NCBI GenBank assembly: GCA_024398105.1
Contig: JAKSJP010000005.1
Span: 55,384-119,383 of the forward strand
Source of the DNA: Bacteroidales bacterium
Lineage (GTDB): Bacteria; Bacteroidota; Bacteroidia; Bacteroidales; UBA932
DNA: 64,000 nt
Direction of reading: 5' to 3'
Notes under the pieces: generated by a model
Database searches by the model: none
What the model saw: the letters and a program-made list of their open reading frames with translations, nothing else
What the model was told of the DNA's origin: nothing
Program-made: the position numbers and the translations under genes
Shown here: in pieces, positions 1,148 through 23,213 of the stretch
Numbering within the stretch: position 1 is the first letter of the stretch
Layout of the letters: each line of letters opens with the position of its first letter

Positions 1148-1212
1148 TATGAAAAATGTAAGCAAATAATTGAAAAATGCCTTGCATTTATAGATTTCAT
1201 TTCATAGTTTTG
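1148..1212 (+). promoter_or_regulatory. Promoter of the gltBD leader with a conserved upstream box
   Basis: The -33 element TTG is at 1182-1184 and the -7 element TAGTTTTG at 1205-1212, with a 20-base spacer. This is the canonical Bacteroidota promoter, placing the start of transcription near 1219. Just upstream (about 1148-1176) is an element of the form TGTAAGCAAAWAATTGAAAAA that recurs at the same place before the glnN promoter (about 15046-15067). Confidence 0.8.
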
Positions 1213-1232
1213 CTGAAGATATAGAACAAAGT

Positions 1233-1307
1233 ATGTCCTTCTGGTCAAATAATAAGGGTAATAAGCAGAACCTCAATAAGGCTCTGAGCCGTTCCTTATG
1301 CAGATAA
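1233..1307 (+). CDS. Asn/Gln-rich leader peptide of gltBD (24 aa)
   Basis: The ATG at 1233 follows an A-rich start context (GAACAAAGT). The 24 codons begin MSFWSNN and contain 5 Asn (four AAT, one AAC) and 1 Gln, with Asn/Gln between codons 6 and 15, ending in TAA at 1305-1307. The first seven residues are identical to the glnN leader peptide. The ORF lies between a good promoter and a terminator-like hairpin in front of gltB, which is the arrangement of an amino-acid biosynthesis attenuator. The role as stalling sensor is inferred from layout, not shown. Confidence 0.65.
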   Translation: MSFWSNNKGNKQNLNKALSRSLCR

Positions 1308-1308
1308 A

Positions 1309-1396
1309 GACCAGCCGGGCTGGCATAGGAAAAAATGAAAGTTCAATAAAACACAATAAAAGGGGCTGGCCAAGAGGTGACCAGCCCCCTTTATTG
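1309..1396 (+). terminator. Attenuator of gltBD: anti-terminator strand and terminator hairpin
   Basis: The hairpin has 15-base arms at 1355-1369 and 1381-1395 (core GGGGCTGG/CCAGCCCC, one mismatch), an 11-base loop, and a short AT-rich tail with a weak U-tract, ending 21 bases before gltB. The strand GACCAGCC (1309-1316) starts one base after the leader stop codon and complements GGCTGG of the 5' arm, so it can compete with hairpin formation. A ribosome that reaches the stop would cover it. A second GGGCTGGC (1317-1324) could also pair with the 3' arm. Confidence 0.65.
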
Positions 1397-1416
1397 TATA
1401 ATTCATCATCAATATT

Positions 1417-4400
1417 ATGCATCAGCATGGTTTATATTCACCATCATACGAGCACGACGCGTGTGGCGTCTCAATGGTGGTCAACATCAACGGTGGAAAG
1501 ACCCACCAGCTGGTAGACAACGCCCTCAAGGTCCTCGAGAACATGGAGCACCGTGGAGCCGAGACCCGCGACAAGACGGGTGACGGAGCTGGTATCCTCC
1601 TCCAGATTCCTCATGAATTCATTCTTCTCCAGGGTATTCCAGTCCCTGAGAAAGGCCATTATGGAACAGGACTTGTCTTCCTTCCTAAGGATCAGAAACG
1701 TCAGAGCGAGCTTCTCGCTGTCATGATCGAGGAGATAGAGAACGCAGGTCTGTCTCTCATGCACCTCAGGACCGTCCCTACGAACTCGGATGTACTGGGT
1801 GTTGGAGCAAGGGAGGTGGAACCTGACATCAAGCAGGTGTTCATCACCGGAGTCAAGGAGGAGGACCTCGAGTTCTTCGAGAGGACTCTCTACAAGATCA
1901 GGAAGAAGATCGAGAGCAGGATCAGCGATGAGGACTTCTACATCTGCTCTCTCTCAAGCAAGGACATCATCTACAAGGGAATGCTTACCTCAGGCCAGCT
2001 GAGAAGATATTTCCCTGACCTGAGCAACGCATACTTCACAAGCGGCCTTGCTCTTGTCCACTCACGTTTCTCGACCAACACCTTCCCTAAGTGGAAGCTT
2101 GCGCAGCCTTTCCGCTACCTCTGCCATAACGGTGAGATCAACACCATACGTGGTAACAGAGGCTGGCTCCAGGCCCGTGAGAGCGTGCTCTCAAGCGATT
2201 ATCTCGGCAACGTGAAGGACATCCGTCCTATCCTCGAGCCTGACATGAGCGACTCTGCCAGCCTTGACAACGTCTTCGAGTTTCTCGTGATGAGCGGCTT
2301 CAGCCTTCCTAAGGCGATGAGCATCCTCGTCCCTGAGTCATTCAACGACAAGAACCCTATCAGCGAGGACCTCAAGGCATTCTACGAGTACCACTCCATC
2401 CTCATGGAACCATGGGACGGTCCTGCGGCACTCCTCTTCTCTGACGGACGCTATGTCGGCGGCATGCTCGACCGCAACGGTCTCCGTCCTGCACGTTACA
2501 CCATCACCAAGAACGGTCTGATGGTAGTAGCCAGTGAGGTAGGTGTCATGGACTTCGACCCTTCGGAGGTCGTTTCCAAGGGCAAGCTCCAGCCAGGTAA
2601 GATCCTCCTTGTCGACACATTGGAGGGCAAGGTGTACTACGACGGCGAGATCAAGCAGCAGCTTGCAAGCGAACATCCATACAGGCAGTGGCTGTCGACC
2701 AACTGCATCCAGCTCGAGAAGATCAAGAGCGGACGTCACGTCGACAACTCAGTCAGCGATCTTGAGCGCAAGCTCGTATGCTTCGGCTACGGCCAGGAGG
2801 ATATCGACAGGACGATCGTACCTATGTGCGAGGGTGCATCGGAGCCTGTGGCATCGATGGGTAACGACACTCCTCTTGCAGTGCTCAGCGACAGGGCCCA
2901 GATATTCTTCAACTATTTCCGCCAGCAGTTCGCCCAGGTGACCAACCCTGCGATCGACCCTATCAGGGAGGAGCTCGTCATGTCCCTCACCGAGTACATC
3001 GGCTCGGTAGGTCCTGGCATCCTCGTCCCGGACGAGTCTAACTGCAAGAAGGTAAGGCTTCCTCAGCCGGTCCTGACGAACACCCAGCTCGACATTCTCT
3101 GCAACATCAGATACAAGGGCTTCAAGTCAGTGAAGCTTCCTATGCTCTTTGAGGTCAGCGGTGGCGAGAAGGCTCTCAAGAGAGCGATCGACGATCTCTG
3201 CCGCAAGGCCGAGGAGTCAGTCGACGAGGGCTACAGCTACATCATCCTCAGCGACAGGGACATCGACGCACAGCACGCTGCGATCCCTTCGCTCCTCGCT
3301 GTCAGCGCCGTCCACCATTACCTCATCTCAGTGCAGAAGCGTGTACAGACCGCGCTCATCGTCGAGTCAGGTGAGATCCGTGAGGTCATGCATGCCGCTC
3401 TGCTCCTCGGTTACGGAGCATCTGCGATCTGCCCATACCTCACGTTCGCAGTCCTCGACGACCTCGTGAAGAAGCACAAGATCCAGGAGGAGTACCAAAC
3501 CGCGGAGAAGAACTATATCAAGGCAGTCGACAAAGGTCTCAAGAAGATCCTTTCAAAGATGGGTATCTCTACCATCAGGTCATACCGTGGAGCAAAGATC
3601 TTCGAGAGCATCGGTCTCAGCGAGGACCTTCTCAGGACATACTTCGGAACCGAGATCTCTACCATCGGCGGTGTCGGCCTGAGGGATATCGCGAAGGATG
3701 CCATCAAGTTCCACGCAGAGGCGTTCAAGCCTGCTGTCATCAACGAGTTCCTTGCAAACAACGGCCAGTTCAGCTACCGCAAGGACGGTATCAAGCACGC
3801 ATGGAACCCTGATACCATCGCCAACCTCCAGATCGCGACCAGGATCGGTTCATATAAGAAGTTCCAGGAGTGGGAGCGCATAGTCGACGAGAAGGAGTCT
3901 CCTATCTTCCTCCGTGACTACATGCATTTCAAGAAGGCTCCCGTGGCGGTTCCTATCGACGAGGTGGAGCCTGTTGAGAGCATCGTTAAGCATTTCGTGA
4001 CCGGTGCGATGTCATTCGGCGCATTGAGCATCGAGGCACATGAGGCCATGGCGATTGCCATGAACCGTCTCGGGACCCGAAGCAATACCGGTGAGGGCGG
4101 CGAGGACAACGAGCGCTACCATTCAGAGCACGAGGGCGTCAGCCTCTCAAGCAAGACCAAGCAGATCGCGTCAGGCCGTTTCGGTGTGACCGCCGAGTAT
4201 CTTGTGAACGCTGAGGAGATCCAGATCAAGGTCGCACAGGGTGCGAAGCCTGGAGAGGGTGGCCAGCTTCCTGGATTCAAGGTCAACAAGATCATCGCGA
4301 AGACCAGGAACTCCATCCCTGGAATCTCCCTGATCTCGCCGCCGCCTCACCATGACATCTATTCTATCGAGGACCTTGCACAGCTGATCTTCGACCTCAA

Positions 4401-5901
4401 GAACGTCAACCCTAAGGCTGCAGTGTCAGTGAAGCTCGTAGCAGAGAGCGGAGTCGGCACCATCGCTGCCGGTGTGGCAAAGGCTAAGGCAGACCTCATC
4501 GTCATCTCCGGTGCGGAGGGCGGTACAGGTGCATCTCCTGCAAGCTCTATGAGATTCGCAGGTATTTCTCCTGAGATCGGTCTCTCCGAGACCCAGCAGA
4601 CCCTTGTGCTCAACGGTCTCCGTGGCCAGGTCCGTCTCCAGACAGACGGCCAGCTCAAGACAGCGAAGGACGTAGTCATCATGGCGATGCTAGGTGCGGA
4701 CGAGTTCTCGTTCGGTACCCTCCCGCTCATCCTCCTCGGATGCGTCATGATGAGGAAGTGCAGCACCAACACCTGCCCTGTCGGCGTGGCTACACAGGAC
4801 GAGAGGCTCCGCAGCCGCTTCACAGGCAAGGCCGACTATATCGTGAACTACTTCACCTTCCTCGCCCAGCATGTACGTGAGTACCTCAGCCAGATCGGTG
4901 TAAGGAAGTTCAAGGACATCATAGGAAGGACAGACCTCATTGAGGTCGACAAGCTTGATCCTGCCACGAAGCAGGGTACCATAGACTTCAGCAGGCTTCT
5001 CTGCTCAGTCGACACTGACAAGCCGCTCCACTGGGACAGAGGCGAATTCACCTCAGTCTCAGGAGTCAAGGACGAGCTCATCATCCAGCAAGCATGGTCG
5101 GCGATCGAGAACGCAGAGGAGATCAACCTCGACTATTCTATCAGGAACACCGACAGAGCGCTTTGTACAATGCTCTCAGGTACCATCGCCAAGAAGTATG
5201 GCGAGCAGGGTCTTCCTGATTCGACCATCAACATCAAGTTCAAGGGCTCGGCAGGCCAGTCGTTCGGCGCATTCGCCGTGAAGGGTCTGAACCTCAAGCT
5301 CGAGGGCGAGTGCAACGACTACTTCGGCAAGGGCCTCTCAGGAGGTAGGATATCTATCCTCCCGCCAGTAAGGAGCAACAGGGACTTTGTCGCTGAGGAC
5401 AACATCATCGCCGGCAACACCGGTATGTACGGTGCCACAAGCGGAGAGATCTATGTCAACGGCCGAGTAGGTGAGAGATTCTGCGTGCGTAACTCAGGAG
5501 CTATCGCCGTCGTCGAGGGCACAGGTGACCACTGCTGCGAGTACATGACAGGAGGTAGGGTAGTTGTTCTCGGCAAGACCGGCAGGAACTTCGCTGCAGG
5601 TATGTCAGGAGGTGTCGCTTACGTCTGGGACAAGGACCATGACTTCGACTACTACTGCAACATGGACATGGTGGAGATCAACCTCGTGGAGGACACAGCA
5701 TACCGCAAGGAGCTTCACGAGCTCATCCGCCAGCACTATCTCTATACAGGCTCAAGGCTCGCAGGCAAGATGCTTGACAACTGGAGCAAGTATGTCGAGG
5801 AATTCATCCAGGTGGTTCCTATCGAGTACAAGAAGGTTCTCCAGGAGGAGCAGATGGCCAAGCTTCAGCAGAAGATCGCCCAGGTTCAGATTGATTATTA
5901 A
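1417..5901 (+). CDS. gltB: Glutamate synthase large subunit
   Basis: The 1494-residue protein is full length for GltB. It transfers the amide nitrogen of glutamine to 2-oxoglutarate, giving two glutamates. The N-terminal Ntn-type glutaminase domain has its catalytic cysteine at residue 16 (EHDACGVS), so a 15-residue propeptide is expected to be removed; MEHRGAETRDKTGDGAG follows. The central and FMN-binding synthase domains span about 470-1200, with the 3Fe-4S cysteines 1109, 1115 and 1120. The C-terminal GXGXG beta-helix contains GNTGMYGAT, CEYMTGG and AAGMSGG. The start at 1417 leaves only one residue position before HQHGLYSPSYEHDAC, which fits the family. gltD follows 23 bases later, and both lie behind the Asn/Gln attenuator. 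Confidence 0.97.
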   Translation: MHQHGLYSPSYEHDACGVSMVVNINGGKTHQLVDNALKVLENMEHRGAETRDKTGDGAGILLQIPHEFILLQGIPVPEKGHYGTGLVFLPKDQKRQSELLAVMIEEIENAGLSLMHLRTVPTNSDVLGVGAREVEPDIKQVFITGVKEEDLEFFERTLYKIRKKIESRISDEDFYICSLSSKDIIYKGMLTSGQLRRYFPDLSNAYFTSGLALVHSRFSTNTFPKWKLAQPFRYLCHNGEINTIRGNRGWLQARESVLSSDYLGNVKDIRPILEPDMSDSASLDNVFEFLVMSGFSLPKAMSILVPESFNDKNPISEDLKAFYEYHSILMEPWDGPAALLFSDGRYVGGMLDRNGLRPARYTITKNGLMVVASEVGVMDFDPSEVVSKGKLQPGKILLVDTLEGKVYYDGEIKQQLASEHPYRQWLSTNCIQLEKIKSGRHVDNSVSDLERKLVCFGYGQEDIDRTIVPMCEGASEPVASMGNDTPLAVLSDRAQIFFNYFRQQFAQVTNPAIDPIREELVMSLTEYIGSVGPGILVPDESNCKKVRLPQPVLTNTQLDILCNIRYKGFKSVKLPMLFEVSGGEKALKRAIDDLCRKAEESVDEGYSYIILSDRDIDAQHAAIPSLLAVSAVHHYLISVQKRVQTALIVESGEIREVMHAALLLGYGASAICPYLTFAVLDDLVKKHKIQEEYQTAEKNYIKAVDKGLKKILSKMGISTIRSYRGAKIFESIGLSEDLLRTYFGTEISTIGGVGLRDIAKDAIKFHAEAFKPAVINEFLANNGQFSYRKDGIKHAWNPDTIANLQIATRIGSYKKFQEWERIVDEKESPIFLRDYMHFKKAPVAVPIDEVEPVESIVKHFVTGAMSFGALSIEAHEAMAIAMNRLGTRSNTGEGGEDNERYHSEHEGVSLSSKTKQIASGRFGVTAEYLVNAEEIQIKVAQGAKPGEGGQLPGFKVNKIIAKTRNSIPGISLISPPPHHDIYSIEDLAQLIFDLKNVNPKAAVSVKLVAESGVGTIAAGVAKAKADLIVISGAEGGTGASPASSMRFAGISPEIGLSETQQTLVLNGLRGQVRLQTDGQLKTAKDVVIMAMLGADEFSFGTLPLILLGCVMMRKCSTNTCPVGVATQDERLRSRFTGKADYIVNYFTFLAQHVREYLSQIGVRKFKDIIGRTDLIEVDKLDPATKQGTIDFSRLLCSVDTDKPLHWDRGEFTSVSGVKDELIIQQAWSAIENAEEINLDYSIRNTDRALCTMLSGTIAKKYGEQGLPDSTINIKFKGSAGQSFGAFAVKGLNLKLEGECNDYFGKGLSGGRISILPPVRSNRDFVAEDNIIAGNTGMYGATSGEIYVNGRVGERFCVRNSGAIAVVEGTGDHCCEYMTGGRVVVLGKTGRNFAAGMSGGVAYVWDKDHDFDYYCNMDMVEINLVEDTAYRKELHELIRQHYLYTGSRLAGKMLDNWSKYVEEFIQVVPIEYKKVLQEEQMAKLQQKIAQVQIDY

Positions 5902-5924
5902 CCTCTCTACAAGAATAATATATT

Positions 5925-7271
5925 ATGGGAAACCCAAAAGCATTTTTGACAGTGCCTCGCAAGGAGGCAGGTTACCGTCCTGTGCATGACCGTATCCACG
6001 ATTTCGGAGAGGTTGAACAGACCCTGAACAGCAAGGACCGACAGGAGCAGGCCAGCCGCTGCATGGATTGCGGCGTTCCGTTCTGCCACTGGGCATGTCC
6101 GCTTGGAAACAAGAACCCTGAGTGGAACGACGCCCTCTACAGAGGTGAGTGGGAGACCGCTTACAAGATCCTCAAGGAGACCAACGACTTCCCTGAGTTC
6201 ACCGGAAGAGTATGTCCGGCTCTCTGCGAGAAGGCATGCGTGCTCTATCTCTCTACCGGCAACGCAGTCACCAACAGGGAGAACGAGGCGGCGATCGCCG
6301 AGCGTGCATATCTCGAGGGATATGTCACCATCGAGAACCCTGTAAGGAACGGCAAGAAGGTCGCAGTCATCGGATCAGGCCCTTCAGGCCTCGCATCGGC
6401 CAACAGGCTCAACTACATGGGCTATGAGGTCACTGTCTTCGAGAAGAACGAAGCCGCAGGAGGTCTCCTCCGCTACGGCATTCCGAACTTCAAGCTCAAC
6501 AAGAAGATCATCGACAGACGTATTGACGTGATGGAGAAGGAAGGCGTGAAGTTCGTCTACAACACACCGGTCGACCTCGCTTCGCTCCCGGAGGGATTCG
6601 ATGCATACGTAGTCTCTACAGGTACTCCTGAGGCACGTGACCTCAAGGCTCCGGGAAGGGAGCTCAAGGGCATCCATCTCGCTCTTGAACTGCTCTCGCA
6701 GCAGAACAGGGTGCTTGCCGGCATGGAATTCAAGAAGGACGAGCTCGTGAACTGCAAGGGCAAGAAGGTCCTCGTCATCGGTGGTGGTGACACAGGCTCC
6801 GACTGTATCGGAACCGCACATCGCCAGGGCGCTACATGCGTGACACAGATCGAGATCATGCCTAAGCCGCCTGTAGGACACAACGACGCTACTCCATGGC
6901 CTAACTGGCCGGTCATCCTCAAGACCACATCCAGCCATGAGGAAGGATGCGACAGAAGATGGCTGCTCAACACCAACCGCTTCATCGGCGACGACAAGGG
7001 CCATGTAAGGCAGGTCGAGGTAGAAGGCGTCATCTGGGAGCCGAATCCGGAGGGAGGACGTCCTATCATGAAACTCGACGGCAAGAAGGAGATCATCGAG
7101 GCCGACATCGTGTTCCTCGCAATGGGATTCATCAAGCCAGTCCAGCCTGAGATGCCTGAGAACGTGTTCTTCGCTGGTGATGCCGCTTCAGGCGCCAGCC
7201 TTGTGGTAAGGGCTATCGCCAGCGGCCGTAAGACCGCGCAGGCAGTGGACAAGTATCTGAAGACCAGATAG
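5925..7271 (+). CDS. gltD: Glutamate synthase small subunit (NADPH)
   Basis: The 448-residue protein passes electrons from NADPH through FAD to the GltB iron-sulfur clusters. The N-terminal 4Fe-4S domain has cysteines 46, 49, 54 and 58 (CMDCG ... CHWACPLG) and a second group at 97, 101 and 105 (CPALCEKAC). The FAD Rossmann motif VAVIGSGPSGLASA is near residue 146 and the NADPH motif VLVIGGGDTGSDC near 284. The C-terminal FAD contact is NVFFAGDAASGASLVVRAI. Length is slightly below the ~470 of proteobacterial GltD. It is the second gene of the gltBD unit, followed by the palindromic terminators at 7341-7459. Confidence 0.96.
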   Translation: MGNPKAFLTVPRKEAGYRPVHDRIHDFGEVEQTLNSKDRQEQASRCMDCGVPFCHWACPLGNKNPEWNDALYRGEWETAYKILKETNDFPEFTGRVCPALCEKACVLYLSTGNAVTNRENEAAIAERAYLEGYVTIENPVRNGKKVAVIGSGPSGLASANRLNYMGYEVTVFEKNEAAGGLLRYGIPNFKLNKKIIDRRIDVMEKEGVKFVYNTPVDLASLPEGFDAYVVSTGTPEARDLKAPGRELKGIHLALELLSQQNRVLAGMEFKKDELVNCKGKKVLVIGGGDTGSDCIGTAHRQGATCVTQIEIMPKPPVGHNDATPWPNWPVILKTTSSHEEGCDRRWLLNTNRFIGDDKGHVRQVEVEGVIWEPNPEGGRPIMKLDGKKEIIEADIVFLAMGFIKPVQPEMPENVFFAGDAASGASLVVRAIASGRKTAQAVDKYLKTR

Positions 7272-7336
7272 GACAGACGGTCGGGACTGCCAGACAGGCC
7301 GATCAGGAAGGACTGAGACAGGTCCGGAAAAAGAGT

Positions 7337-7477: not shown

Positions 7478-7493
7478 CTGGCGCGCCGATCTG

Positions 7494-9362
7494 TCAGCTG
7501 GCGCTCGCGCAGTAGTCGATGAAGGAGCGGAGGAGGAGCCTCAGGCCGCCGGGAGTAGGGTAGTGTCCGGTGAAGTACCAGTCGCCTGGGAAGTCTGGGA
7601 TGGCCTTGTGCAGGCCCTCGATGCTCTGGTAGACGAACTCGATAGGGGTGGTGACGCCTTCCGGACGAAGAAGCTCGATCATCTTGGCGTTGATCTCCTC
7701 GGCGGTGAACGGCTCGTAGAGCCTTCTGACCGGATTCTCGAGCTCCGAGCATGGGATCATGCTACCTGCTCTGCCGTCCGTGCCCTGGGCAGCCATCCGG
7801 CATTCGAGCTGGGCGAGGACCTTGCGGCAGGCACCATGGACCTCGTCGATGAGGTTCTCCATCCCGCGTTCCCTGAGCAGGGCCATGCAGGACTGGAAGG
7901 CGATGAAGTCTTCGATGCGGCTCATGTCGATTCCGTAGAAGTCCGGGTAGCGGACCTGAGGTGCCGAGCTGACGATGACTATCTTCTTGGGGTGAAGGCG
8001 GTCGAGGATCTTGATGATGCTTTCCCTGAGGGTGGTGCCGCGGACTATGCTGTCGTCGATGACGACCAGGTTGTCCTTGTATTCCTCGATGGCGCCGGTG
8101 GTGATGTCGTAGACGTGCGATGCGAGGTCGTTCCTGGAGTTGCCTTCGGTGATGAAGGTCCTGAGCTTGATGTCCTTCGATACGATCTTCTCGCATCGGA
8201 TAGTCGGGTCGACGGCCCTGAGAGCCTCAGAAAGGCCGTAATAGGCCACTTCGGCGGTGTTAGGGATGTAGGAGACGACAGTGTGCTTTGTATCGCCACC
8301 GACGGCATTGAGGACCTGCTGGGTGAGGTTGTGCCCGAGGGCTTTCCTCTCCTGGTAGATGTCACGGTCGTTTCCGCGGCTGAAGTATATCCTCTCGAAG
8401 CTGCACGGGAGGTACTCCTGCGCTTCCATGATCTGCCTGAAGCAGATCTCGCCCGCTGCGTTCACGATGAGAGCCTCGCCCGGCCTGATCGGGCAGACAT
8501 CCTCGCACTTGAGGTTGAACGCTGTCTGGAGCACCGGTCTCTCGCTTGCAATCGCTACGATCTCGTCGTCGGCATAGTAGAACGCAGGGCGGATTCCGTG
8601 CGGGTCCCTTACGCAGAAGAGCTCTCCGCTGCCTGTGAGTCCGCACATGACGTAGCCTCCGTCGAAGCGTGGCATGGTCGTACGGAGCACGTTGCTGATG
8701 TCTATGTGGCTGTCGATGTACTCGGTTATCCCGCTGCCTTCGAGGCCCAGCTGCGTGGCGATCTGGAAGTTCCTCTCGACTTCGCGGTCGAGCCTGTGGC
8801 CCATGTACTCGAGGGTTATGTAGCTGTCGTTGTAGACCCTCGGGCATTGTCCGAGCTCCGTCAGGTATCCGAAGACGTCGGAGATGTTGGTCATATTGAA
8901 GTTGCCGCAGATGCAGAGGTTCTTGGCCTTCCAGTTGTTCCTACGCAGGAAAGGGTGGACATATTTCAGTCCTCCCTTGCCGGTGGTGGAATATCTCAGG
9001 TGACCCATGTAGAGCTCGCCGATGAAAGGTGCGGATGCGTCCGGGGAGTCATCAGTGGTGGTGATCTCGGCCGGGCCGTCCTCGTATTCGCCGCTGAGCT
9101 GCTTGGCGATCGATGCGAACACCTTGGTGATGGCGTCCTTGCCTTCGGCCTTCTCCCTGTACATGTATTCATGTCCTGCAGGTTGGTTAAGCTTTACGCA
9201 TGCCATTCCTGCGCCTTCCTGTCCGCGGTTGTGCTGCTTCTCCATCATCAGATAGAGCTTGTCCAGCGCATACCTGTCGCTACCGTATTTCTCCTGATAG
9301 TACTCCAGAGGCTTGAGGAGCCGTATCATGGCGATACCACATTCGTGCTTGAGGGTTTCCAT
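7494..9362 (-). CDS. purF: Amidophosphoribosyltransferase family protein (PurF-like)
   Basis: The 622-residue protein would make phosphoribosylamine from PRPP and glutamine, the first step of purine synthesis. The Ntn glutaminase domain starts METLKHECGIA, making Cys8 the nucleophile after propeptide removal; KQHNRGQEGAG follows. The phosphoribosyltransferase domain carries the PRPP loop VVIDDSIVRGTTLR at about residues 436-450. The protein is about 120 residues longer than E. coli PurF, with insertions and a C-terminal extension; such long forms occur in Bacteroidota. It is the last gene of the asnB-pyrG-dapF-dapL-purF unit, 12 bases after dapL. A specialised paralogue cannot be excluded, since a second PurF could lie elsewhere in the genome. 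Confidence 0.85.
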   Translation of the reverse strand: METLKHECGIAMIRLLKPLEYYQEKYGSDRYALDKLYLMMEKQHNRGQEGAGMACVKLNQPAGHEYMYREKAEGKDAITKVFASIAKQLSGEYEDGPAEITTTDDSPDASAPFIGELYMGHLRYSTTGKGGLKYVHPFLRRNNWKAKNLCICGNFNMTNISDVFGYLTELGQCPRVYNDSYITLEYMGHRLDREVERNFQIATQLGLEGSGITEYIDSHIDISNVLRTTMPRFDGGYVMCGLTGSGELFCVRDPHGIRPAFYYADDEIVAIASERPVLQTAFNLKCEDVCPIRPGEALIVNAAGEICFRQIMEAQEYLPCSFERIYFSRGNDRDIYQERKALGHNLTQQVLNAVGGDTKHTVVSYIPNTAEVAYYGLSEALRAVDPTIRCEKIVSKDIKLRTFITEGNSRNDLASHVYDITTGAIEEYKDNLVVIDDSIVRGTTLRESIIKILDRLHPKKIVIVSSAPQVRYPDFYGIDMSRIEDFIAFQSCMALLRERGMENLIDEVHGACRKVLAQLECRMAAQGTDGRAGSMIPCSELENPVRRLYEPFTAEEINAKMIELLRPEGVTTPIEFVYQSIEGLHKAIPDFPGDWYFTGHYPTPGGLRLLLRSFIDYCASAS

Positions 9363-9374
9363 AGACTTGTGGGC

Positions 9375-10565: not shown

Positions 10566-10589
10566 TGTCTGTCTTGTTGTCTGTCTTGT
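10566..10589 (-). repeat. Two perfect 12-bp tandem repeats immediately before the dapL start codon
   Basis: On the coding strand the unit ACAAGACAGACA occurs twice in tandem and ends exactly at the ATG. It occupies the ribosome-entry region of dapL. Confidence 0.85.
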
Positions 10590-10630
10590 TTGAAGTCCGT
10601 TGTCTTTTTTTGTCTGAAGCCCGCTGTCTC

Positions 10631-13065: not shown

Positions 13066-13083
13066 AGTAGATGTATTACTCTG

Positions 13084-14775: not shown

Positions 14776-14861
14776 TAAATAAAGGGACTGGTCTTAAGAC
14801 CAGTCCCTTTAGGTTACTTTTTCGCTTATAAACTGTAAGTTATTTTGTATGTCCGGCTGGT
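14776..14861 (-). terminator. Attenuator hairpin of the asnB operon
   Basis: Bases 14781-14810 form a perfect 30-base palindrome. It folds as a 13-bp stem (core GGGACTGGTC/GACCAGTCCC) with a TTAA loop, 29 bases before asnB on the - strand, followed by a modest T-rich tail. The possible competing strand ACCAG (coded at 14857-14861, near the end of the leader ORF) pairs with CTGGT of the 5' arm over 5 bp. This is weaker than in the other three leaders. Confidence 0.6.
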
Positions 14862-14941
14862 AGAACAACACAATAAAGCGGCAGAATGTAATTATTATTC
14901 TGCATATAATTATTATTGTTATTATTGGCTCTGAACATCAT
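14840..14941 (-). CDS. Asn-rich leader peptide of the asnB operon (33 aa)
   Basis: The ORF starts with two ATG codons (14941 and 14938). It encodes six Asn in a row at codons 6-11, then Tyr-Met-Gln, then three more Asn at 15-17: nine Asn (eight AAT, one AAC) and a single Gln. TAA is at 14842-14840. It sits between a strong promoter and the asnB hairpin. The choice of amino acid matches the product of the downstream gene, as in classical his/leu/trp leaders. Translation of the ORF is inferred. Confidence 0.7.
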   Translation of the reverse strand: MMFRANNNNNNYMQNNNYILPLYCVVLPAGHTK

Positions 14942-14962
14942 AAATCATTGAATTATCGATGT

Positions 14963-14993
14963 CAAATGTAGAAAACAACTTTTTAAATACCAA
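14963..14993 (-). promoter_or_regulatory. Promoter of the asnB leader
   Basis: On the - strand TTG (14993-14991), a 20-base spacer and TACATTTG (14970-14963) match the Bacteroidota consensus. Transcription should begin near 14956, about 15 bases before the leader ATG. It is divergent from the glnN promoter at 15072-15102, and about 50 AT-rich bases separate the two control regions. Confidence 0.8.
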
Positions 14994-15045
14994 ATATTTT
15001 TTTGATTTTTTTAAGGGCGGATACCCTCGCGCGCTATATTATAAA

Positions 15046-15102
15046 GTGTAAGCAAAAAATTGAAAAAATTCTTGCATTTATGAAATCCAATATTTAGTTT
15101 TG
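15046..15102 (+). promoter_or_regulatory. Promoter of the glnN leader with conserved upstream box
   Basis: TTG at 15072-15074, a 20-base spacer and TAGTTTTG at 15095-15102 form the promoter. Both elements and the preceding TGTAAGCAAAWAATTGAAAAA-type box match the gltB promoter almost base for base. Confidence 0.8.
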
Positions 15103-15122
15103 CTCCCAGAAACGAACAAACA

Positions 15123-15200
15123 ATGTCATTCTGGTCAAATAACAATAACGATAATAAGCAGAACCTTAATCAGGCTCCGCTCATTCTTCGTATGCAGTAA
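15123..15200 (+). CDS. Asn/Gln-rich leader peptide of glnN-carAB (25 aa)
   Basis: The 25 codons begin MSFWSNNNN and contain 7 Asn (four AAT, three AAC) and 3 Gln, and end in TAA at 15198-15200. The start context GAACAAACA and the first seven residues match the gltB leader. It lies between the promoter at 15072-15102 and the hairpin at 15255-15287. Confidence 0.68.
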   Translation: MSFWSNNNNDNKQNLNQAPLILRMQ

Positions 15201-15201
15201 A

Positions 15202-15288
15202 GACCAGCCGCAGAGGCATATGGAAAGGATTGAAATTATAATAGAATAGAATTGAAAAGGGGCTGGTCAAGGAGACTGGCCCCTTTTT
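15202..15288 (+). terminator. Attenuator of glnN: anti-terminator strand and terminator
   Basis: The terminator stem is 14 bp (15255-15268 with 15274-15287, including two G-U pairs), has a 5-base loop AAGGA, and runs into TTTTT. The strand GACCAGCC at 15202-15209 begins one base after the leader stop and is perfectly complementary over 8 bp to GGCTGGTC of the 5' arm (15261-15268). The two structures are therefore mutually exclusive. Confidence 0.75.
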
Positions 15289-15318
15289 ATGTTTAACAAA
15301 AAAACAACGGTTAGAGTT

Positions 15319-17508
15319 ATGTCAGCAAAATTAAGACTTCAGGTAGTTGATGAGGCGTTCAAGCGTCACCCGGTCTTTGTGGATTCCCCAGTCGAGCGTC
15401 CTAGCGAGTACTTCGGCAAGTACGTGTTCGGAAGAGACAAGATGTTCAAGTATCTTCCTTCAGACGTTTACAAGAAGATGTGCGACGTGATCGACAACGG
15501 TGCTCCTTTCGAGAGAAGCATCGCAGATGCAGTGGCAGCAGGTATGGTCACCTGGGCAAAGGAGCTCGGTGTCACACATTACACCCACTGGTTCCAGCCT
15601 CTTACTGAAGGCACCGCTGAAAAGCATGATGGTTTCGTCGAGCATGACGGCAAGGGCGGCATGATGGAGGAGTTCACAGGAAAGCTTCTCATCCAGCAGG
15701 AGCCTGACGCAAGTTCATTCCCTTCAGGCGGTATCCGCAGCACCTTCGAGGCACGTGGATATTCAGCATGGGATCCTACGTCACCGGTATTCGTCATCGG
15801 TGACACATTGATGATCCCTACCATCTTCATCTCATATACAGGTGAGGCCCTTGACTACAAGGTTCCTCTGAAGAAGGCCCTCTATGCAGTTGACAAGGCG
15901 GCTACAGCAGTCTGCCAGTACTTCAACCCTGAGGTCAAGAAGGTAGTCAGCAACCTCGGATGGGAGCAGGAGTACTTCCTCGTGGACGAGGCTCTCTATG
16001 CTGCACGTCCTGACATGGTCATGACCGGCCGTACCCTCATGGGCCACGACTCTGCTAAGAACCAGCAGATGGAGGACCACTACTTCGGAAGCATCCCTGC
16101 ACGTGTCGAGGAGTTCATGAAGGACATCGAGATCACAGCACTCGAGCTCGGCATCCCTTGCAAGACACGCCACAACGAGGTGGCACCTAACCAGTTCGAG
16201 CTTGCTCCTATCTTCGAGGAGACCAATCTCGCGGTAGACCACAACATGCTCATGATGTCCATCATGAAGAGAGTTGCACGCAAGCATGGCTTCCGCTGCC
16301 TTCTCCATGAGAAGCCTTTCAAGGGCGTGAACGGATCAGGAAAGCACAACAACTGGTCTCTCTCCACAGATACAGGCATCCTTCTCCATGCTCCAGGAAA
16401 GACACCTCTGGACAACCTCCGTTTCGTGACCTTCGTCGTAGAGACCCTCAAGGGCGTGTATGACCACAACGGCCTCCTCAAGGCCAGCATCATGTCAGCA
16501 TCTAACGCACACCGTCTCGGTGCAAACGAGGCACCTCCAGCAATTATCTCATCATTCCTCGGAAGGACTGTGACCGCTCTCCTCGACCATGTCGAGAAGG
16601 CTGACGAGGACGCTCTCCGCGTGGATGGAAAGACAGCGTTCAAGCTTGACCTCCCTTCAATTCCTGAACTCTTCATCGACAACACCGACCGAAACAGGAC
16701 ATCTCCTTTCGCATTTACCGGAAACCGCTTCGAGTTCCGTGCGGTGGGTTCTGAGGCAAACTGTGCAAGCGCAATGCTCACCCTCAACGCAGCGGTGGCT
16801 GAGGCCCTCGTCGATTTCAAGGAGAGAGTTGACGCCCTCATCGCAGCAGGAGAGGACAAGGAGGCTGCGATCCTCAAGATCGTGCGCGAAGACATCAAGT
16901 ATATCCGCCCTATCATCTTCAACGGCAACGGTTATGGCGAGGAGTGGAAGGTAGAGGCCGCAAAGCGCGGACTTGACTGCGAGACATCGGCTCCTCTCAT
17001 CTTTGACTCATACCTCAAGGAGTCTTCTATAAAAATGTTTGAGAAGACCAAGGTCATGACTGCCCCTGAGCTCGAGGCCCGCAACGAGATCAAGTGGGAG
17101 ACCTACACAAAGAAGATCCAGATCGAGAGCCGTATCTTCGGCGACCTCTGTCTCAACCATATCATCCCTGTGGTCACAAAGTACCAGAGCATGCTCATCG
17201 ACAACGTCCACAAGGTGATGGAGATCTTCCCTGAGGAGAAAGCCAAGGCTATCTCGAAGGAGAACCTCCTCATCATCGAGCGCATCAGCGACCATGAGTC
17301 GTTCATCATCGAGAAGGTCGAGGCCATGGTTGATGCACGCCGAGTTGCAAACAAGATCGAGTCCGAGCGCGAGAAGGCTATCGCATACCACGATACAGTC
17401 GCTCCGCTCCTCGAGGAGATCCGCTATCACGTAGACAAGCTCGAGACCATCGTCGACGACGAGGCATGGCCGCTTCCTAAGTACCGCGAGCTTCTGTTCA
17501 TCAGATAG
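15319..17508 (+). CDS. glnN: Glutamine synthetase type III
   Basis: The enzyme makes glutamine from glutamate, ammonia and ATP. From the ATG at 15319 (MSAKLRLQVVDEAF) the protein is 729 residues, the known length of Bacteroides GSIII. An in-frame ATG at 15289 lies inside the U-tract of the attenuator and is unlikely to be used. GSIII signatures include SFPSGGIRSTFEARGYSAWD, ETNLAVDHNML, GVNGSGKHNNWSL and NRTSPFAFTGNRFEFRAVGS. The protein is much longer than GSI/GSII. carA follows after 24 bases, so glutamine synthesis is coupled to a major glutamine user. Confidence 0.97.
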   Translation: MSAKLRLQVVDEAFKRHPVFVDSPVERPSEYFGKYVFGRDKMFKYLPSDVYKKMCDVIDNGAPFERSIADAVAAGMVTWAKELGVTHYTHWFQPLTEGTAEKHDGFVEHDGKGGMMEEFTGKLLIQQEPDASSFPSGGIRSTFEARGYSAWDPTSPVFVIGDTLMIPTIFISYTGEALDYKVPLKKALYAVDKAATAVCQYFNPEVKKVVSNLGWEQEYFLVDEALYAARPDMVMTGRTLMGHDSAKNQQMEDHYFGSIPARVEEFMKDIEITALELGIPCKTRHNEVAPNQFELAPIFEETNLAVDHNMLMMSIMKRVARKHGFRCLLHEKPFKGVNGSGKHNNWSLSTDTGILLHAPGKTPLDNLRFVTFVVETLKGVYDHNGLLKASIMSASNAHRLGANEAPPAIISSFLGRTVTALLDHVEKADEDALRVDGKTAFKLDLPSIPELFIDNTDRNRTSPFAFTGNRFEFRAVGSEANCASAMLTLNAAVAEALVDFKERVDALIAAGEDKEAAILKIVREDIKYIRPIIFNGNGYGEEWKVEAAKRGLDCETSAPLIFDSYLKESSIKMFEKTKVMTAPELEARNEIKWETYTKKIQIESRIFGDLCLNHIIPVVTKYQSMLIDNVHKVMEIFPEEKAKAISKENLLIIERISDHESFIIEKVEAMVDARRVANKIESEREKAIAYHDTVAPLLEEIRYHVDKLETIVDDEAWPLPKYRELLFIR

Positions 17509-17532
17509 TAAGTATTTGAACGTAAATTATAT

Positions 17533-18591
17533 ATGACAAGAGCGAAACTCATCCTTGAAGATGGATCGGAATTCGTAGGAACGTCATTCGGATATGAGAA
17601 GTCTGTGTCAGGCGAACTGTGTTTCTATACGGCGATGACCGGTTACCCAGAGAGCCTCACAGACCCATCATACCGGGGACAGATCCTTGTTCCGACATAT
17701 CCGATGATCGGAAATTACGGAGTCCCGGAGGACGTGAAGGAGAACGGGATCTCCAAATTCTTTGAGTCTGACAGAATATGGTGCCAGGCGATGATAATAT
17801 CTGACTATTCCGAGAAGTACAGCCACTGGGACGGCGCACGCAGCCTGGGCGCATGGCTCAAGCAGCAGCAGATCCCGGCACTGTGCGACATCGACACCAG
17901 GGTGCTGACCAAGAAGCTCCGCGACAAGGGAGCATTGCTGGGAAAGATCGTCTTCGGAGAGGATGACGTCGAGCTCAAGGACCCTAATGCACGCAACCTT
18001 GTGTCCGAGGTGTCTACCGACACCGTGACCACCTACGGCAACGGAAGCAAGAAGGTGCTCATGGTCGACTGCGGAATGAAGAACAACATCCTTCGTTGCC
18101 TTCTCCGCTACGACGTCACCGTGAAGAGGGTACCATGGAACTATGATTTCAGGAATGAGGATTACGACGGACTGTTCATCTCGAACGGTCCGGGTGATCC
18201 TTCTCTTTGTACAGAGACCATCGAGCACATAAGGTGGGCACTCGGGCAGGACAAGCCGATCATGGGCATCTGCCTGGGCAACCAGCTGCTTGCGATCGCG
18301 GCCGGTGCGAAGACCTACAAGCTCAAGTACGGCCACCGCGGCCACAATGTCCCTGTCCGCAAGGAGGGCACGCGTTCATGTCTCATCACATCGCAGAACC
18401 ATGGTTTCGCCATTGACGAATCGACTCTTCCTTCAGAGTGGGAGACCCTGTTCTCCAACCTCAATGACGGTACGAACGAGGGCATCCGCCACAAGTCAAA
18501 GCCATTCTTCTCGACTCAGTTCCACCCTGAAGCCTCAAGCGGCCCTGTAGATTCGATGCAGCTGTTCGAGGAGTTCGTCAAATCACTTTAA
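17533..18591 (+). CDS. carA: Carbamoyl-phosphate synthase small subunit
   Basis: The 352-residue glutaminase subunit supplies ammonia to CarB for arginine and pyrimidine synthesis. The N-terminal interaction domain has LILEDGSEFVGTSFG and FYTAMTGYPESLTDPSY. The class I glutaminase has NGPGDPS, the nucleophile elbow GICLGNQLLA and FHPEASSGP. It is the second gene of glnN-carA-carB and ends 4 bases before carB. Confidence 0.97.
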   Translation: MTRAKLILEDGSEFVGTSFGYEKSVSGELCFYTAMTGYPESLTDPSYRGQILVPTYPMIGNYGVPEDVKENGISKFFESDRIWCQAMIISDYSEKYSHWDGARSLGAWLKQQQIPALCDIDTRVLTKKLRDKGALLGKIVFGEDDVELKDPNARNLVSEVSTDTVTTYGNGSKKVLMVDCGMKNNILRCLLRYDVTVKRVPWNYDFRNEDYDGLFISNGPGDPSLCTETIEHIRWALGQDKPIMGICLGNQLLAIAAGAKTYKLKYGHRGHNVPVRKEGTRSCLITSQNHGFAIDESTLPSEWETLFSNLNDGTNEGIRHKSKPFFSTQFHPEASSGPVDSMQLFEEFVKSL

Positions 18592-18595
18592 GAAT

Positions 18596-21500
18596 ATGGA
18601 AATGCAGAAAATACTGGTGCTCGGATCTGGTGCGCTGAAGATCGGTGAGTCCGGAGAGTTCGACTACTCAGGTTCACAGGCCCTCAAGGCGCTCCATGAG
18701 GAAGGGAAGTTCACTGTCCTCATCAACCCAAACATCGCCACCGTCCAGACTTCGGAAGGCATTGCTGACCATATCTATTATCTTCCGGTGACCCCCGAGT
18801 TCGTCGAGCGCGTCATCGAGAAGGAACGTCCTGACGGAATCATGCTCGCTTTCGGCGGACAGACCGCGCTCAACTGCGGCGTCGCGCTCTATGAGAGCGG
18901 TGTGCTTGAGAAATACAACGTCAAGGTGGTGGGTACTCCTGTGGAGGCCATCATCAACACCGAGGACCGTGAGCTCTTCGCGTCCATGATGCGCGAGATC
19001 GGGGTCAAGACCGCCCGCAGCGAGGCTGTCAGCTCGATCGAGGAGGCCCTGGAGGTCGTGCGTGAGATCGGATATCCTATCATCGTACGTGCCGCCTACA
19101 CCCTCGGAGGTCTTGGCTCGGGATTCTGCAACAATGACGACGAGCTCCGCCGTCTTGCCGCGTCAGCTTTCTCATACTCTCCCCAGATCCTCATCGAGGA
19201 GTCGTTGAAAGGCTGGAAAGAGATTGAATATGAAGTTGTCAGGGACAGGTTTGACAACTGCATCACAGTATGTAACATGGAGAACTTCGACCCTCTCGGA
19301 ATCCATACAGGAGAGAGCGTCGTGGTGGCTCCTTCGCAGACCTTGAGCGACCATGAGTACCATAAGCTCCGTGAGATCGCCATCAAGATCGCGCGCCGTG
19401 TAGGCATAGTGGGAGAGTGCAACGTGCAGTATGCGCTCGACCCTGACAGCGACGACTACCGCGTCATCGAGCTCAATGCCCGTCTTTCACGAAGCTCGGC
19501 CCTCGCATCGAAGGCTACCGGCTATCCGCTCGCTTTCGTGGCCGCGAAGCTCGGCCTGGGCTACGGCCTGGACGAGATCCAGAACTCCGTCACCAAGTGC
19601 ACCTCGGCCTTCTTCGAGCCTGCCCTCGACTATGTCGTCTGCAAGATTCCTCGCTGGGACCTCGGCAAGTTCGACGGCGTTTCGAAGCTCATCGGCTCCA
19701 GCATGAAGTCGGTAGGTGAGGTAATGGCCATCGGACGTACCTTCGAGGAGGCTATCCAGAAGGGCATGAGAATGGTCGGCCAGGGTCTCCATGGTTTCGT
19801 GGCCAATACCGTGAAGGTCCCGGACGTGGAATTCGAGCTCAGGAACCCTACAGACAAGCGTCTGCCTGCGATCGAGCTGGCGTTCGACATGGGATACACC
19901 ATCGACCAGCTCCATGAGATCACCAGGATCGACAGGTGGTTCCTCTTCCGCCTGCAGAACATCCATGAAGTGAAGACCCAGCTTGCCGCCTATGACAAGG
20001 CGGGCGACGTTCCTGCCGCCCTTCTCCGCCAGGCGAAGGAGATGGGCTTCTCAGACTACCAGATAGGAAAGATCGTCATCAAGGACGGCATGAATGCCCA
20101 TGACAAGTCGGACCTCGTCCGCGCCGCCCGCAAGCAGCTCGGCATCCTTCCTGTCGTCAAGCAGATCGATACCATGGCCGGAGAGTATCCTGCCATGACC
20201 AATTACCTCTATATGACATACAACGGCTCGGAGTCGGACGTGGAGTTCGCCCGTGACGGGAAGTCGGTGATCGTGCTCGGTTCAGGAGCCTACCGTATCG
20301 GCTCCAGCGTCGAGTTCGACTGGTGCGGCGTCGCTGCCGTGAAGAAGATCCAGGAGATGGGCTACCGCTCGATCATGATTAACTACAATCCGGAGACCGT
20401 GTCGACCGACTATGATATCTGCGACCGCCTCTTCTTCGACGAGCTCACCTTGGAGCGCGTGCTTGACGTTTGCGACCTGGAGATGCCGAAGGGAGTGATC
20501 GTCTGCACAGGTGGACAGATCCCTAACAACCTCGCGCTGCTCCTTGACAAGCAGGGAGTGAAGATCCTCGGTACGAGCGCCGAGTCCATCGACATCGCAG
20601 AGGACCGTCAGAAGTTCTCGACCATGTGCGACCGTCTGGGAATCGACCAGCCTAGGTGGAAGGAGCTTACCAAGATGGAGGAGATCTACGACTTCGTCAA
20701 GGAGGTGGGCCTCCCTGTCATGATCCGTCCTTCGTATGTGCTCTCGGGTGCTGCGATGAGGGTGGTTGAGAACATGGACGAGCTTGAGAACGCCCTCCAG
20801 AACGCGGCTGTAGTCAGTCAGGAGCACCCTGTCGTGGTTACCGAGTTCCTCCAGCGTGCGAAGGAGGTGGAGATCGACGCCGTCGCCCAGAACGGTGAGA
20901 TCAAGTGCTACGCCATCAGCGAGCACATCGAGTACGCCGGCGTGCACTCAGGAGACGCGACCGTCGTGTTCCCTGCGCAGAAGCTCTACTTCGAGACCAT
21001 ACGCCGAATCAAACATACCGCCCGCAAGATCGCGCAGACCCTGAACATCTCGGGACCTTTCAACATCCAGTTCCTCGCCAAGGACAACGAGCTGAGGGTC
21101 ATCGAGTGCAACCTCAGGGCGTCACGCTCGTTCCCGTTCGTGTCGAAGATCACCAAGTTCAACTTCATCGGCATGGCCACCGAGATCATGCTCGGCAAGG
21201 AGGTCGAGCCGTTCGGAAAGAGCTTCGCCGACATCGACTACGTGGGCATCAAGTCATCCCAGTTCTCGTTCGCTAGACTTCTCAAGGCCGACCCTATCCT
21301 CGGCGTGGACATGGCATCGACCGGTGAGGTCGCCTGCATCGGCGACAACTACTACGAGGCCCTGCTCAAGAGCATGCTGTCCGTCGGACACAGGATCCCG
21401 TCCAAGGACCATGGCATCCTCATCTCCTCAGGTGCGGCACGCTCCAAGGTGGAGATGCTCGAGGCGGCACGCACGCTCCAGAAGGCAGGCTATCTGATCT

Positions 21501-21814
21501 ACGCCACAGCAGGCACCGCGGACTTCCTCGCATCCAACGGGGTGGAGTCGACAGTGCTCCACTGGCCGGACTCGGAGCAGACTCCGAATGTCATCGACTA
21601 CATCCGTGACCACAGGATCGACCTCGTCGTCAACATCCCTAAGAACAACACGCCCCGTGAGCTCCAGAACGGATACAAGATCCGCAGGGCTGCGATCGAC
21701 TACAACGTGCCTCTCATCACAAATGCCCGTCTTGCAAGCGCCTTCATCAGCTCGTTCTGCAAGTATGACATCTCCGACCTCGAGATAAAGCACTGGGGAG
21801 AGTATAATTCCTAG
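18596..21814 (+). CDS. carB: Carbamoyl-phosphate synthase large subunit
   Basis: The 1072-residue protein is full length. Two homologous ATP-grasp halves each begin with a dinucleotide-like motif (LVLGSGALKIGESGEFDYSG near residue 7 and VIVLGSGAYRIGSSVEFDW near 558). It makes carbamoyl phosphate from bicarbonate, ammonia and two ATP. The last ~130 residues form the MGS-like allosteric domain (GYLIYATAGTADFLASNGVE). The ATG at 18596 is followed two codons later by another ATG; either gives a normal N-terminus. The unit ends at 21814 before the amtB leader. Confidence 0.98.
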   Translation: MEMQKILVLGSGALKIGESGEFDYSGSQALKALHEEGKFTVLINPNIATVQTSEGIADHIYYLPVTPEFVERVIEKERPDGIMLAFGGQTALNCGVALYESGVLEKYNVKVVGTPVEAIINTEDRELFASMMREIGVKTARSEAVSSIEEALEVVREIGYPIIVRAAYTLGGLGSGFCNNDDELRRLAASAFSYSPQILIEESLKGWKEIEYEVVRDRFDNCITVCNMENFDPLGIHTGESVVVAPSQTLSDHEYHKLREIAIKIARRVGIVGECNVQYALDPDSDDYRVIELNARLSRSSALASKATGYPLAFVAAKLGLGYGLDEIQNSVTKCTSAFFEPALDYVVCKIPRWDLGKFDGVSKLIGSSMKSVGEVMAIGRTFEEAIQKGMRMVGQGLHGFVANTVKVPDVEFELRNPTDKRLPAIELAFDMGYTIDQLHEITRIDRWFLFRLQNIHEVKTQLAAYDKAGDVPAALLRQAKEMGFSDYQIGKIVIKDGMNAHDKSDLVRAARKQLGILPVVKQIDTMAGEYPAMTNYLYMTYNGSESDVEFARDGKSVIVLGSGAYRIGSSVEFDWCGVAAVKKIQEMGYRSIMINYNPETVSTDYDICDRLFFDELTLERVLDVCDLEMPKGVIVCTGGQIPNNLALLLDKQGVKILGTSAESIDIAEDRQKFSTMCDRLGIDQPRWKELTKMEEIYDFVKEVGLPVMIRPSYVLSGAAMRVVENMDELENALQNAAVVSQEHPVVVTEFLQRAKEVEIDAVAQNGEIKCYAISEHIEYAGVHSGDATVVFPAQKLYFETIRRIKHTARKIAQTLNISGPFNIQFLAKDNELRVIECNLRASRSFPFVSKITKFNFIGMATEIMLGKEVEPFGKSFADIDYVGIKSSQFSFARLLKADPILGVDMASTGEVACIGDNYYEALLKSMLSVGHRIPSKDHGILISSGAARSKVEMLEAARTLQKAGYLIYATAGTADFLASNGVESTVLHWPDSEQTPNVIDYIRDHRIDLVVNIPKNNTPRELQNGYKIRRAAIDYNVPLITNARLASAFISSFCKYDISDLEIKHWGEYNS

Positions 21815-21844
21815 GGGGTATGTCAGTTTAAACGATAAAGTATT

Positions 21845-21874
21845 TTGATTTGTTTTTCAAGTATCCTAACTTGG
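21845..21874 (+). promoter_or_regulatory. Promoter of the porin-glnK-amtB leader
   Basis: TTG at 21845-21847, a 19-base spacer and TAACTTGG at 21867-21874 resemble the Bacteroidota consensus with one deviation in the -7 box. The upstream box shared by gltB and glnN is not evident here. Confidence 0.55.
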
Positions 21875-21902
21875 CATCAGTAAACATACAGAACATCATC
21901 AG

Positions 21903-22025
21903 ATGAACGGTCTTCGTACATACGCATCTGCAAATAATCAGCAGAATAATAATCAGAGCCAGAATAATAATCAGGCTCAGAATAAGCGTGTGTACATATC
22001 AGAGGGACCAGACATGAGGTGGTAG
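21903..22025 (+). CDS. Asn/Gln-rich leader peptide of porin-glnK-amtB (40 aa)
   Basis: From the ATG at 21903, the segment of codons 11-27 is made almost only of Asn and Gln (NNQQNNNQSQNNNQAQN). In total there are 10 Asn (nine AAT) and 6 Gln (all CAG) in 40 codons, and TAG is at 22023-22025. It is the most extreme of the four leaders. It sits between a promoter and a strong terminator in front of the ammonium-uptake genes. Confidence 0.72.
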   Translation: MNGLRTYASANNQQNNNQSQNNNQAQNKRVYISEGPDMRW

Positions 22026-22095
22026 GATAGAAGAAGAGAGAATCAATTTACAGTATAGGGCTGGTCCAAGGTTTTGGGCCGGCCTTTTTCTTTTT
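22004..22095 (+). terminator. Attenuator of porin-glnK-amtB
   Basis: The hairpin pairs 22057-22067 with 22076-22086 (11 bp with G-U pairs, loop AAGGTTTT) and is followed by TTTTTCTTTTT, a strong intrinsic terminator 45 bases before the porin ATG. The strand GGACCAG at 22005-22011, inside leader codons 35-37, is perfectly complementary over 7 bp to CTGGTCC (22061-22067) of the 5' arm. Confidence 0.75.
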
Positions 22096-23207: not shown

Positions 23208-23213
23208 TGTGTT

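Follow-up and report, generated by a model that had tools for sequence, protein, structure and literature searches.

Asn/Gln-rich leader reading frames before nitrogen operons of a Bacteroidales family as candidate transcription attenuators

What do four short open reading frames (ORFs), rich in asparagine (Asn) and glutamine (Gln) codons, do in front of four nitrogen operons of a Bacteroidales bacterium? They lie upstream of gltBD, an asnB operon, glnN and a porin-glnK-amtB operon within a 64 kb stretch of DNA (the window; G000:C44:55384-119383) of a 48-contig draft genome of 2.43 Mb (G000). An earlier note on this DNA had pointed to these ORFs and their Asn and Gln counts, to promoter-like boxes (one base off before the porin gene) and to a GC-rich hairpin ahead of each first gene. 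Direct reading confirmed the ORFs, counts and boxes, and the hairpin is terminator-like at all four sites. From sequence comparisons we conclude that each leader is very probably a ribosome-mediated transcription attenuator that senses the charging of tRNA-Asn and tRNA-Gln.

In the mechanism that we propose, RNA polymerase would transcribe a short leader messenger RNA whose ORF holds clustered Asn (AAT/AAC) and Gln (CAG) codons. Were charged tRNA-Asn or tRNA-Gln scarce, a ribosome would stall in the cluster. An RNA strand that lies at the stop codon or beside it, about 45 nucleotides (nt) farther downstream (strand 2), would then remain free to pair with the terminator's 5′ arm, and transcription would continue into the operon. 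With the tRNAs charged, the ribosome would reach the stop codon and presumably cover strand 2, the terminator would fold and transcription would stop. The genes behind the leaders serve ammonium assimilation (glnN, gltBD), its import and the signalling of its level (porin-glnK-amtB), and Asn synthesis or Gln use (asnB, carAB, pyrG), and they include an ATP-grasp operon elsewhere in the genome. Because the genes so controlled assimilate, import or use nitrogen, Asn/Gln charging would report nitrogen status, and most likely a shortage of Asn or Gln switches the leader-bearing genes on. The genome encodes the glutaminyl-tRNA synthetase glnS (713.8 bits; family cut-off 425.8) and an asnS-like protein that matches asparaginyl-tRNA synthetase over its first 120 residues (92 bits for this fragment); both tRNAs can therefore probably be charged directly with the free amides.

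Asn/Gln-rich leaders before operon-first nitrogen genes

A search for ORFs of 14-70 codons with six or more Asn/Gln codons in 20, on either strand of the window, gave 12 ORFs, and a terminator follows four of them, precisely the four leader sites. To extend the comparison to relatives, we searched genus-mates with the glnN, gltB, asnB and amtB proteins (of 101 genomes, 27 gave gltB, 25 amtB and 36 an asnB-like match, several of the asnB-like ones weak) and chose 40 stretches by gene position, mainly where nitrogen genes cluster; one of them (G058) comes from another family. The window and these stretches contain 96 Asn/Gln-dense short ORFs. A terminator follows 28 of them, and all of these but one (27) directly precede gltB, glnN, asnB, glnK, carA or the porin gene.

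Placement is tied to the start of operons. Defining a gene as operon-first when no ORF of at least 90 codons ends within 130 nt upstream, we found a leader plus terminator at 32 of 37 operon-first nitrogen genes in the chosen stretches and at none of 66 internal ones; this count omits G058 and genes with less than 250 nt upstream, one of which (G083 glnK) bears a leader. Because genomes with gltB, asnB or amtB matches supplied most of the stretches, a choice in favour of the leader-bearing island, a fuller count was made over the fetched same-genus glnN, asnB and gltB loci, partial and weak matches omitted. Here a leader precedes 16 of 24 operon-first genes (glnN 7/11, asnB 8/9, gltB 1/4) and none of 43 internal ones. 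At the amtB loci of this test a leader stands before glnK in 9 of 21, with a test window that stops short of the G000 porin leader. Gene order varies by species, for example asnB-glnN-gltBD in G001 and glnN-gltBD-glnK-amtB-asnB in G016; the leader, where present, precedes the operon's first gene despite this variation.

A few loci stand apart from these counts. Two more Asn/Gln leaders lie before asnB at L089 (G010) and L092 (G079), outside the leader statistics. Before dapF-dapL-glnN-gltBD-asnB of G030 (L123:3900-4125) there is no Asn/Gln leader; a short ORF with an FDFDY (Phe/Asp/Tyr) motif is found there, and a clear hairpin follows it. At glnN of G086 (L125, minus strand), again with no Asn/Gln leader, the gene is preceded by a short ORF bearing the same motif.

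For codon content we assembled 33 leaders (four from the window and 29 from relatives) from 22 genomes, excluding G058 as a false candidate; the frame of the G012 asnB leader is uncertain. The mean Asn/Gln density is 10.2 in 20 codons, compared with 3.1 in dinucleotide-shuffled versions of the 300 nt upstream, where a density of 6 is reached in 4.2% and a density of 9 in 0 of 3300. For 32 of the 33 leaders the density has the minimum attainable p (0.0099), and for the remaining one p=0.07. Asn is encoded by AAT 137 times and AAC 61 times, and Gln by CAG 150 times and CAA 9 times. Among 11 pairs of related leaders, the four closest show residue changes in 0 of 44 Asn/Gln codons versus 15 of 79 other codons.

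The mix of the two residues differs between operons. Over the last 32 residues of each leader, the Asn share is 0.56-0.92 in six asnB leaders and 0.12-0.83 in the 27 others (asnB higher, one-sided Mann-Whitney p=0.0014), and the G022 glnN leader holds seven Gln and one Asn. Cognate codons thus fit the product for the Asn-rich asnB leaders; the carAB, porin and ATP-grasp leaders fit only by way of nitrogen status. This codon mix, with Asn at asnB and both Gln and Asn at glnN and glnK, yields a direct prediction for the proposed mechanism.

Strand 2 is complementary to the terminator arm and keeps its distance from the codon cluster

The longest ungapped pairing between strand 2 and the terminator arm is 6 base pairs (bp) at gltB, 5 at asnB, 8 at glnN and 7 at the porin leader, the same lengths that the earlier note gave for its CCAG-containing strand. 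When all leaders are taken together, own pairs score 16.5 and permuted partners 14.4 (standard deviation 0.41), with none of 20,000 permutations as good. This co-variation arises between pairing classes (GGCTGG in 18 leaders, ACCGG in 7, others in 8), and the compensatory changes give the strand-2:arm sets CCAGCC:GGCTGG, CCGGTC:GACCGG, ACGGCCT:AGGCCGT, GGACCAG:CTGGTCC, GTCGGC:GCCGGC and GCCGG:CCGGC. The pairing, whose conservation had been proposed for study, is therefore maintained among the relatives, and with the operon-first placement it supports the earlier suggestion of attenuation. Eight Asn/Gln leaders beyond the co-variation set also pair over 6-10 bp, with arms chosen by eye and without a shuffle control.

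Strand 2 starts either 3 to 14 nt after the start of the stop codon or 5 to 19 nt before it, inside the end of the ORF. The position of the Asn/Gln cluster relative to the stop codon tracks that of strand 2 (Spearman 0.82, n=32; G091 was excluded before this test). The distance from cluster to strand 2 is 45 nt with a standard deviation of 6.6, and the standard deviations to the stop codon are larger, 10.6 and 10.2. This constant spacing fits the need of a stalled-ribosome switch, in which strand 2 would be free with the ribosome at the cluster and covered with it at the stop codon.

Spread, counter-evidence and alternatives

An RNA model (R1) was built from 18 leaders and searched in the 101 genus genomes, where its training leaders rank high by construction. 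It gave new glnN leaders in G113, G117, G107, G098 and G025 (G113 judged from the gene start); matches with no Asn/Gln ORF among 20 places examined were set aside, mostly as 3′-end terminators. Within G000 itself, R1 revealed a fifth Asn/Gln leader, which lies on contig 3, outside the window (MKSISRRNNNNNNQQQGNQNTLPLRYVLPGRDMVR; E 0.0016). The gene behind it encodes a circularly permuted ATP-grasp protein (PF14403, 450 bits), and the leader suggests that nitrogen control extends to this operon. A model that includes the contig-3 leader (R2), and so matches there by construction, gave 28 matches in the same genome, among which the five known leaders are the only Asn/Gln leaders recognised.

In a search of 119 genomes of the family, with part of the weak matches left unexamined, Asn/Gln leaders were found in two further genera, g93 (G244 glnN, G193 glnK-amtB) and g80 (G180 glnN), and thus in three genera of one family. 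No clear Asn/Gln leader was found at 15 glnN loci of other families from a protein search, at 29 amtB loci (one of the same genus), at 17 loci examined from an R1 search of 198 genomes of the order, or, by a survey that included no terminator scan, at 80 named glnN loci (three with too little upstream DNA), largely of Prevotellaceae and Bacteroidaceae. Four of the 80 have an ORF at or above the density limit, judged by eye to be gene ends or repeats, and one amtB locus (L309) passes the mechanical rule but resembles the tail of a coding gene. The earlier note had proposed a model scan of relatives: the leaders recur in the genus and two more genera, but in none of the other Bacteroidales families tested. 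Because gltB and asnB were tested within the genus only and R1 carries family-specific sequence, absence beyond the family is not proven.

R1 also finds five leaders in g93 of the type ...FFFWRAWFWQ... (or FFFWRTWFWQ), with a similar terminator, before a TrpB-like gene (L350, L351, L352, L353 and L355). The lineage therefore appears to employ this layout of leader and terminator with Trp codons as well.

Several observations weigh against attenuation by Asn/Gln leaders. No leader is found at five of the 37 operon-first genes (G030 dapF, G065 gltB, G013 gltB, G013 asnB and G104 glnK) or at eight of the 24 in the fuller set (glnN of G017, G020, G023 and G033; gltB of G065, G013 and G083; asnB of G013), and G086 glnN, operon-first by eye and not among the 37, has the FDFDY-type leader instead. 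In G017, G020, G023 and G033, gltB was not found by protein search. The promoter pattern, which we take to be of the Bacteroidota -33/-7 type, occurs in its strict form in 7 of 33 leaders (0.22 expected) and in a loose form in 16 (5.6 expected), so the leader promoter is not uniform. Strand 2 lies at -18/-19 in four leaders (G000 asnB, G000 porin, G016 glnN and G084 glnN), where a ribosome at the stop codon would mask it only by its rear edge, and G091 glnN is without a good strand 2 (4 bp). Duplexes of single leaders mostly have p>0.05 against simple shuffles, to which the permutation test over all leaders was added, and the species are related, so that counts are not independent and the pairing numbers are optimistic. 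The conservation of Asn/Gln codons for which the earlier note had called is present in the four closest pairs but not in the seven less close ones, where residue changes affect 31 of 85 Asn/Gln and 44 of 114 other codons, with no difference between them. In addition, within the limits of the tests made, the leaders are confined to three genera. Strand 2 of the Trp leaders is weak (3-5 bp by the same test), so these support attenuation by analogy only.

A further point on this side concerns strand 1. No conserved strand 1:2 hairpin was found: 2 of 33 leaders (G000 glnN and G001 asnB) reach p<0.05, and the mean score is 11.5 compared with 11.6 in shuffles. The leaders thus differ from the four-strand arrangement of the E. 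coli trp type, in which strand 1:2 competes with 2:3. A short hairpin directly after the stop codon was also tested and is not general; G000 gltB reaches p<0.05. With no conserved 1:2 hairpin, the antiterminator should form without translation, which predicts read-through by default, in contrast to E. coli trp.

Among other explanations, the one that survives best, although we regard it as unlikely, is that the terminators are controlled by a ligand or protein (a riboswitch, a T-box-like element or an RNA-binding regulator) and the Asn/Gln-rich ORFs are incidental. T-box leaders and the cyanobacterial glutamine riboswitch, RNAs that directly bind tRNA or glutamine, likewise place Asn/Gln or nitrogen genes under RNA control, and T-box elements serve Asn genes elsewhere. 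The terminators are also typical of the lineage: similar GGCTGG...CCAGCC cores occur at gene 3′ ends in the genus (many loci around R1 matches), so terminator sequence alone is no marker of the regulon. However, Rfam gave no match at the gathering score in the window or in 16 loci, most of them leader-bearing, and its four matches on 591 bases are all far below gathering. RNAalifold on the 3′ parts of the leaders gave only the terminator, within a search for aptamer folds limited to these two programs. What the leaders have in common is an Asn/Gln-rich frame and a strand by the stop codon whose position tracks the codon cluster.

We consider it less probable still that the translated leader acts as a peptide or stalled nascent chain that senses a metabolite, in the manner of TnaC or ErmCL, and not through tRNA charging. 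The C-termini are indeed alike within groups, such as SCLAGRIR in the glnK leaders, but strand 2 (CCGGTC) lies within the codons of this stretch, so that RNA pairing accounts for the likeness. Between groups little is common except the Asn/Gln clusters, whereas a stalling peptide should keep specific residues. Finally, that AAT/CAG-like repeats in A+T-rich upstream DNA incidentally produced the Asn/Gln richness, with no regulatory meaning, is the most improbable of the three: it would suit the prevalence of AAT and CAG, the leader with p=0.07 and the changed codons of the less close pairs, but not the densities of the other 32 leaders, the mixture of AAC with AAT, the nitrogen genes behind 27 of 28 terminator-bearing ORFs or the co-varying strands.

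Returning to attenuation through Asn- and Gln-tRNA charging, we tentatively propose, with belief falling slightly short of doubt, a wider role: the family may use this charging, read out by a portable attenuator module that is on by default, as a main sensor of nitrogen at the level of transcription. The regulon would comprise uptake, the signal protein PII, glutamine synthetase, glutamate synthase, AsnB, CarAB and the ATP-grasp operon; the codon mix would tune operons to Asn or Gln, and the module would precede whichever gene is first after rearrangement.

Known systems and the gene setting of the window

The trp, his, thr, leu and phe operons of E. coli are controlled by leader-peptide attenuators. 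The leaders described here resemble them: a short ORF carries cognate codons, an antiterminator strand lies by the stop codon, and an intrinsic terminator precedes the first gene. They differ in having Asn and Gln as cognates, in serving several nitrogen operons, among them those for ammonium uptake and PII, and in lacking a conserved 1:2 pause hairpin. The kind of control is known; what is new is the two cognates, the placement ahead of several nitrogen operons and the simpler build with no strand 1. In the open-access literature, judged mostly by titles and abstracts, we found no description of attenuation by Asn/Gln leaders or of a leader-peptide nitrogen regulon.

Within the phylum, putative leader-peptide short ORFs occur in long 5′ untranslated regions of B. 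thetaiotaomicron (PMC7366714), and clues to attenuation have been noted before amino-acid operons of Flavobacterium psychrophilum (PMC9723704). The general mechanism proposed there is alike, but the portions of the main texts consulted make no mention of nitrogen genes or Asn/Gln leaders (PMC7366714, PMC9723704). In Prevotella ruminicola 23, ammonium supply has a strong effect on amtB, glnK, asnB, glnN and gltBD, with a 69-fold response of amtB; these genes are shared with the leader-bearing set, and the parts of the report consulted give no mechanism (PMC5552732). The leaders offer a testable mechanism for nitrogen-gene control in a Bacteroidales family. If true, Asn and Gln would join the amino acids sensed by leader-peptide attenuation, several operons of a single regulon would come under it, and amide status would be sensed by the ribosome and not solely by a dedicated nitrogen regulator.

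Table 1. Leader elements and genes of the window, with the leader region on contig 3
Feature	Position	Strand	Basis or remark
gltBD promoter-like TTG-N20-TAGTTTTG	1182..1212	+	read directly
gltBD leader ORF MSFWSNNKGNKQNLNKALSRSLCR	1233..1307	+	24 codons, N5 Q1
gltBD strand 2 CCAGCC	1311..1316	+	pairs with GGCTGG of terminator 5′ arm
gltBD leader terminator hairpin	1353..1397	+	by sequence
gltB, gltD (glutamate synthase)	1417..7271	+	family scans
asnB-pyrG-dapF-dapL-(purF-like) operon	7494..14751	-	family scans
asnB leader terminator hairpin	14780..14811	-	by sequence
asnB strand 2 ACCAG	14857..14861	-	pairing test
asnB leader ORF (M)MFRANNNNNNYMQNNNYILPLYCVVLPAGHTK	14840..14941	-	33 codons (32 from 14938), N9 Q1
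asnB promoter-like TTG-N20-TACATTTG	14963..14993	-	read directly
glnN promoter-like TTG-N20-TAGTTTTG	15072..15102	+	read directly
glnN leader ORF MSFWSNNNNDNKQNLNQAPLILRMQ	15123..15200	+	25 codons, N7 Q3
glnN strand 2 GACCAGCC	15202..15209	+	pairing test
glnN leader terminator hairpin	15255..15288	+	by sequence
glnN-carA-carB	15289..21814	+	homology/family scans; carB from the earlier note's name and position
porin-glnK-amtB promoter-like TTG-N19-TAACTTGG, one base off	21845..21874	+	read directly
porin-glnK-amtB leader ORF MNGLRTYASANNQQNNNQSQNNNQAQNKRVYISEGPDMRW	21903..22025	+	40 codons, N10 Q6
porin strand 2 GGACCAG	22005..22011	+	pairing test
porin-glnK-amtB leader terminator hairpin and U-run	22057..22096	+	by sequence
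outer-membrane-type protein, glnK, amtB	22140..24443	+	Gcw_chp match 23.3 bits, just below cut-off 24
fifth Asn/Gln leader region	L290:1440-3030 = G000:C3 about 27440-29030		R1 search

Gene calls rest on NCBIfam for gltB, gltD, asnB, pyrG, dapL and carA and on Pfam for dapF, glnK and amtB; glnN was traced by homology, its NCBIfam glutamine-synthetase matches being weak. The names given earlier for gltBD, asnB-pyrG-dapF-dapL, carA and glnK-amtB stand, but 'purF' is better called PurF-like, since it matches TIGR01134 only weakly (133 bits, cut-off 350). For the porin gene, a start at ATG 22140 is likelier than at GTG 22116. This small Gcw_chp-type protein (22140-22829) opens the glnK-amtB operon, and in some species a counterpart lies between amtB and asnB. 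A palindrome, GACCTAGGTC, occurs in four copies at 7340-7465, between the convergent gltD and purF-like genes.

The window's glnN (15289-17508) shares 84-87% identity with its counterparts in two genus-mates, mostly 51-65% with those of other genus-mates, 85-90% with three public proteins from metagenome-assembled genomes labelled Bacteroidaceae or Bacteroidales, and 58% with a second glnN of the same genome (contig 33). Gene exchange or an old duplication may lie behind these identities.

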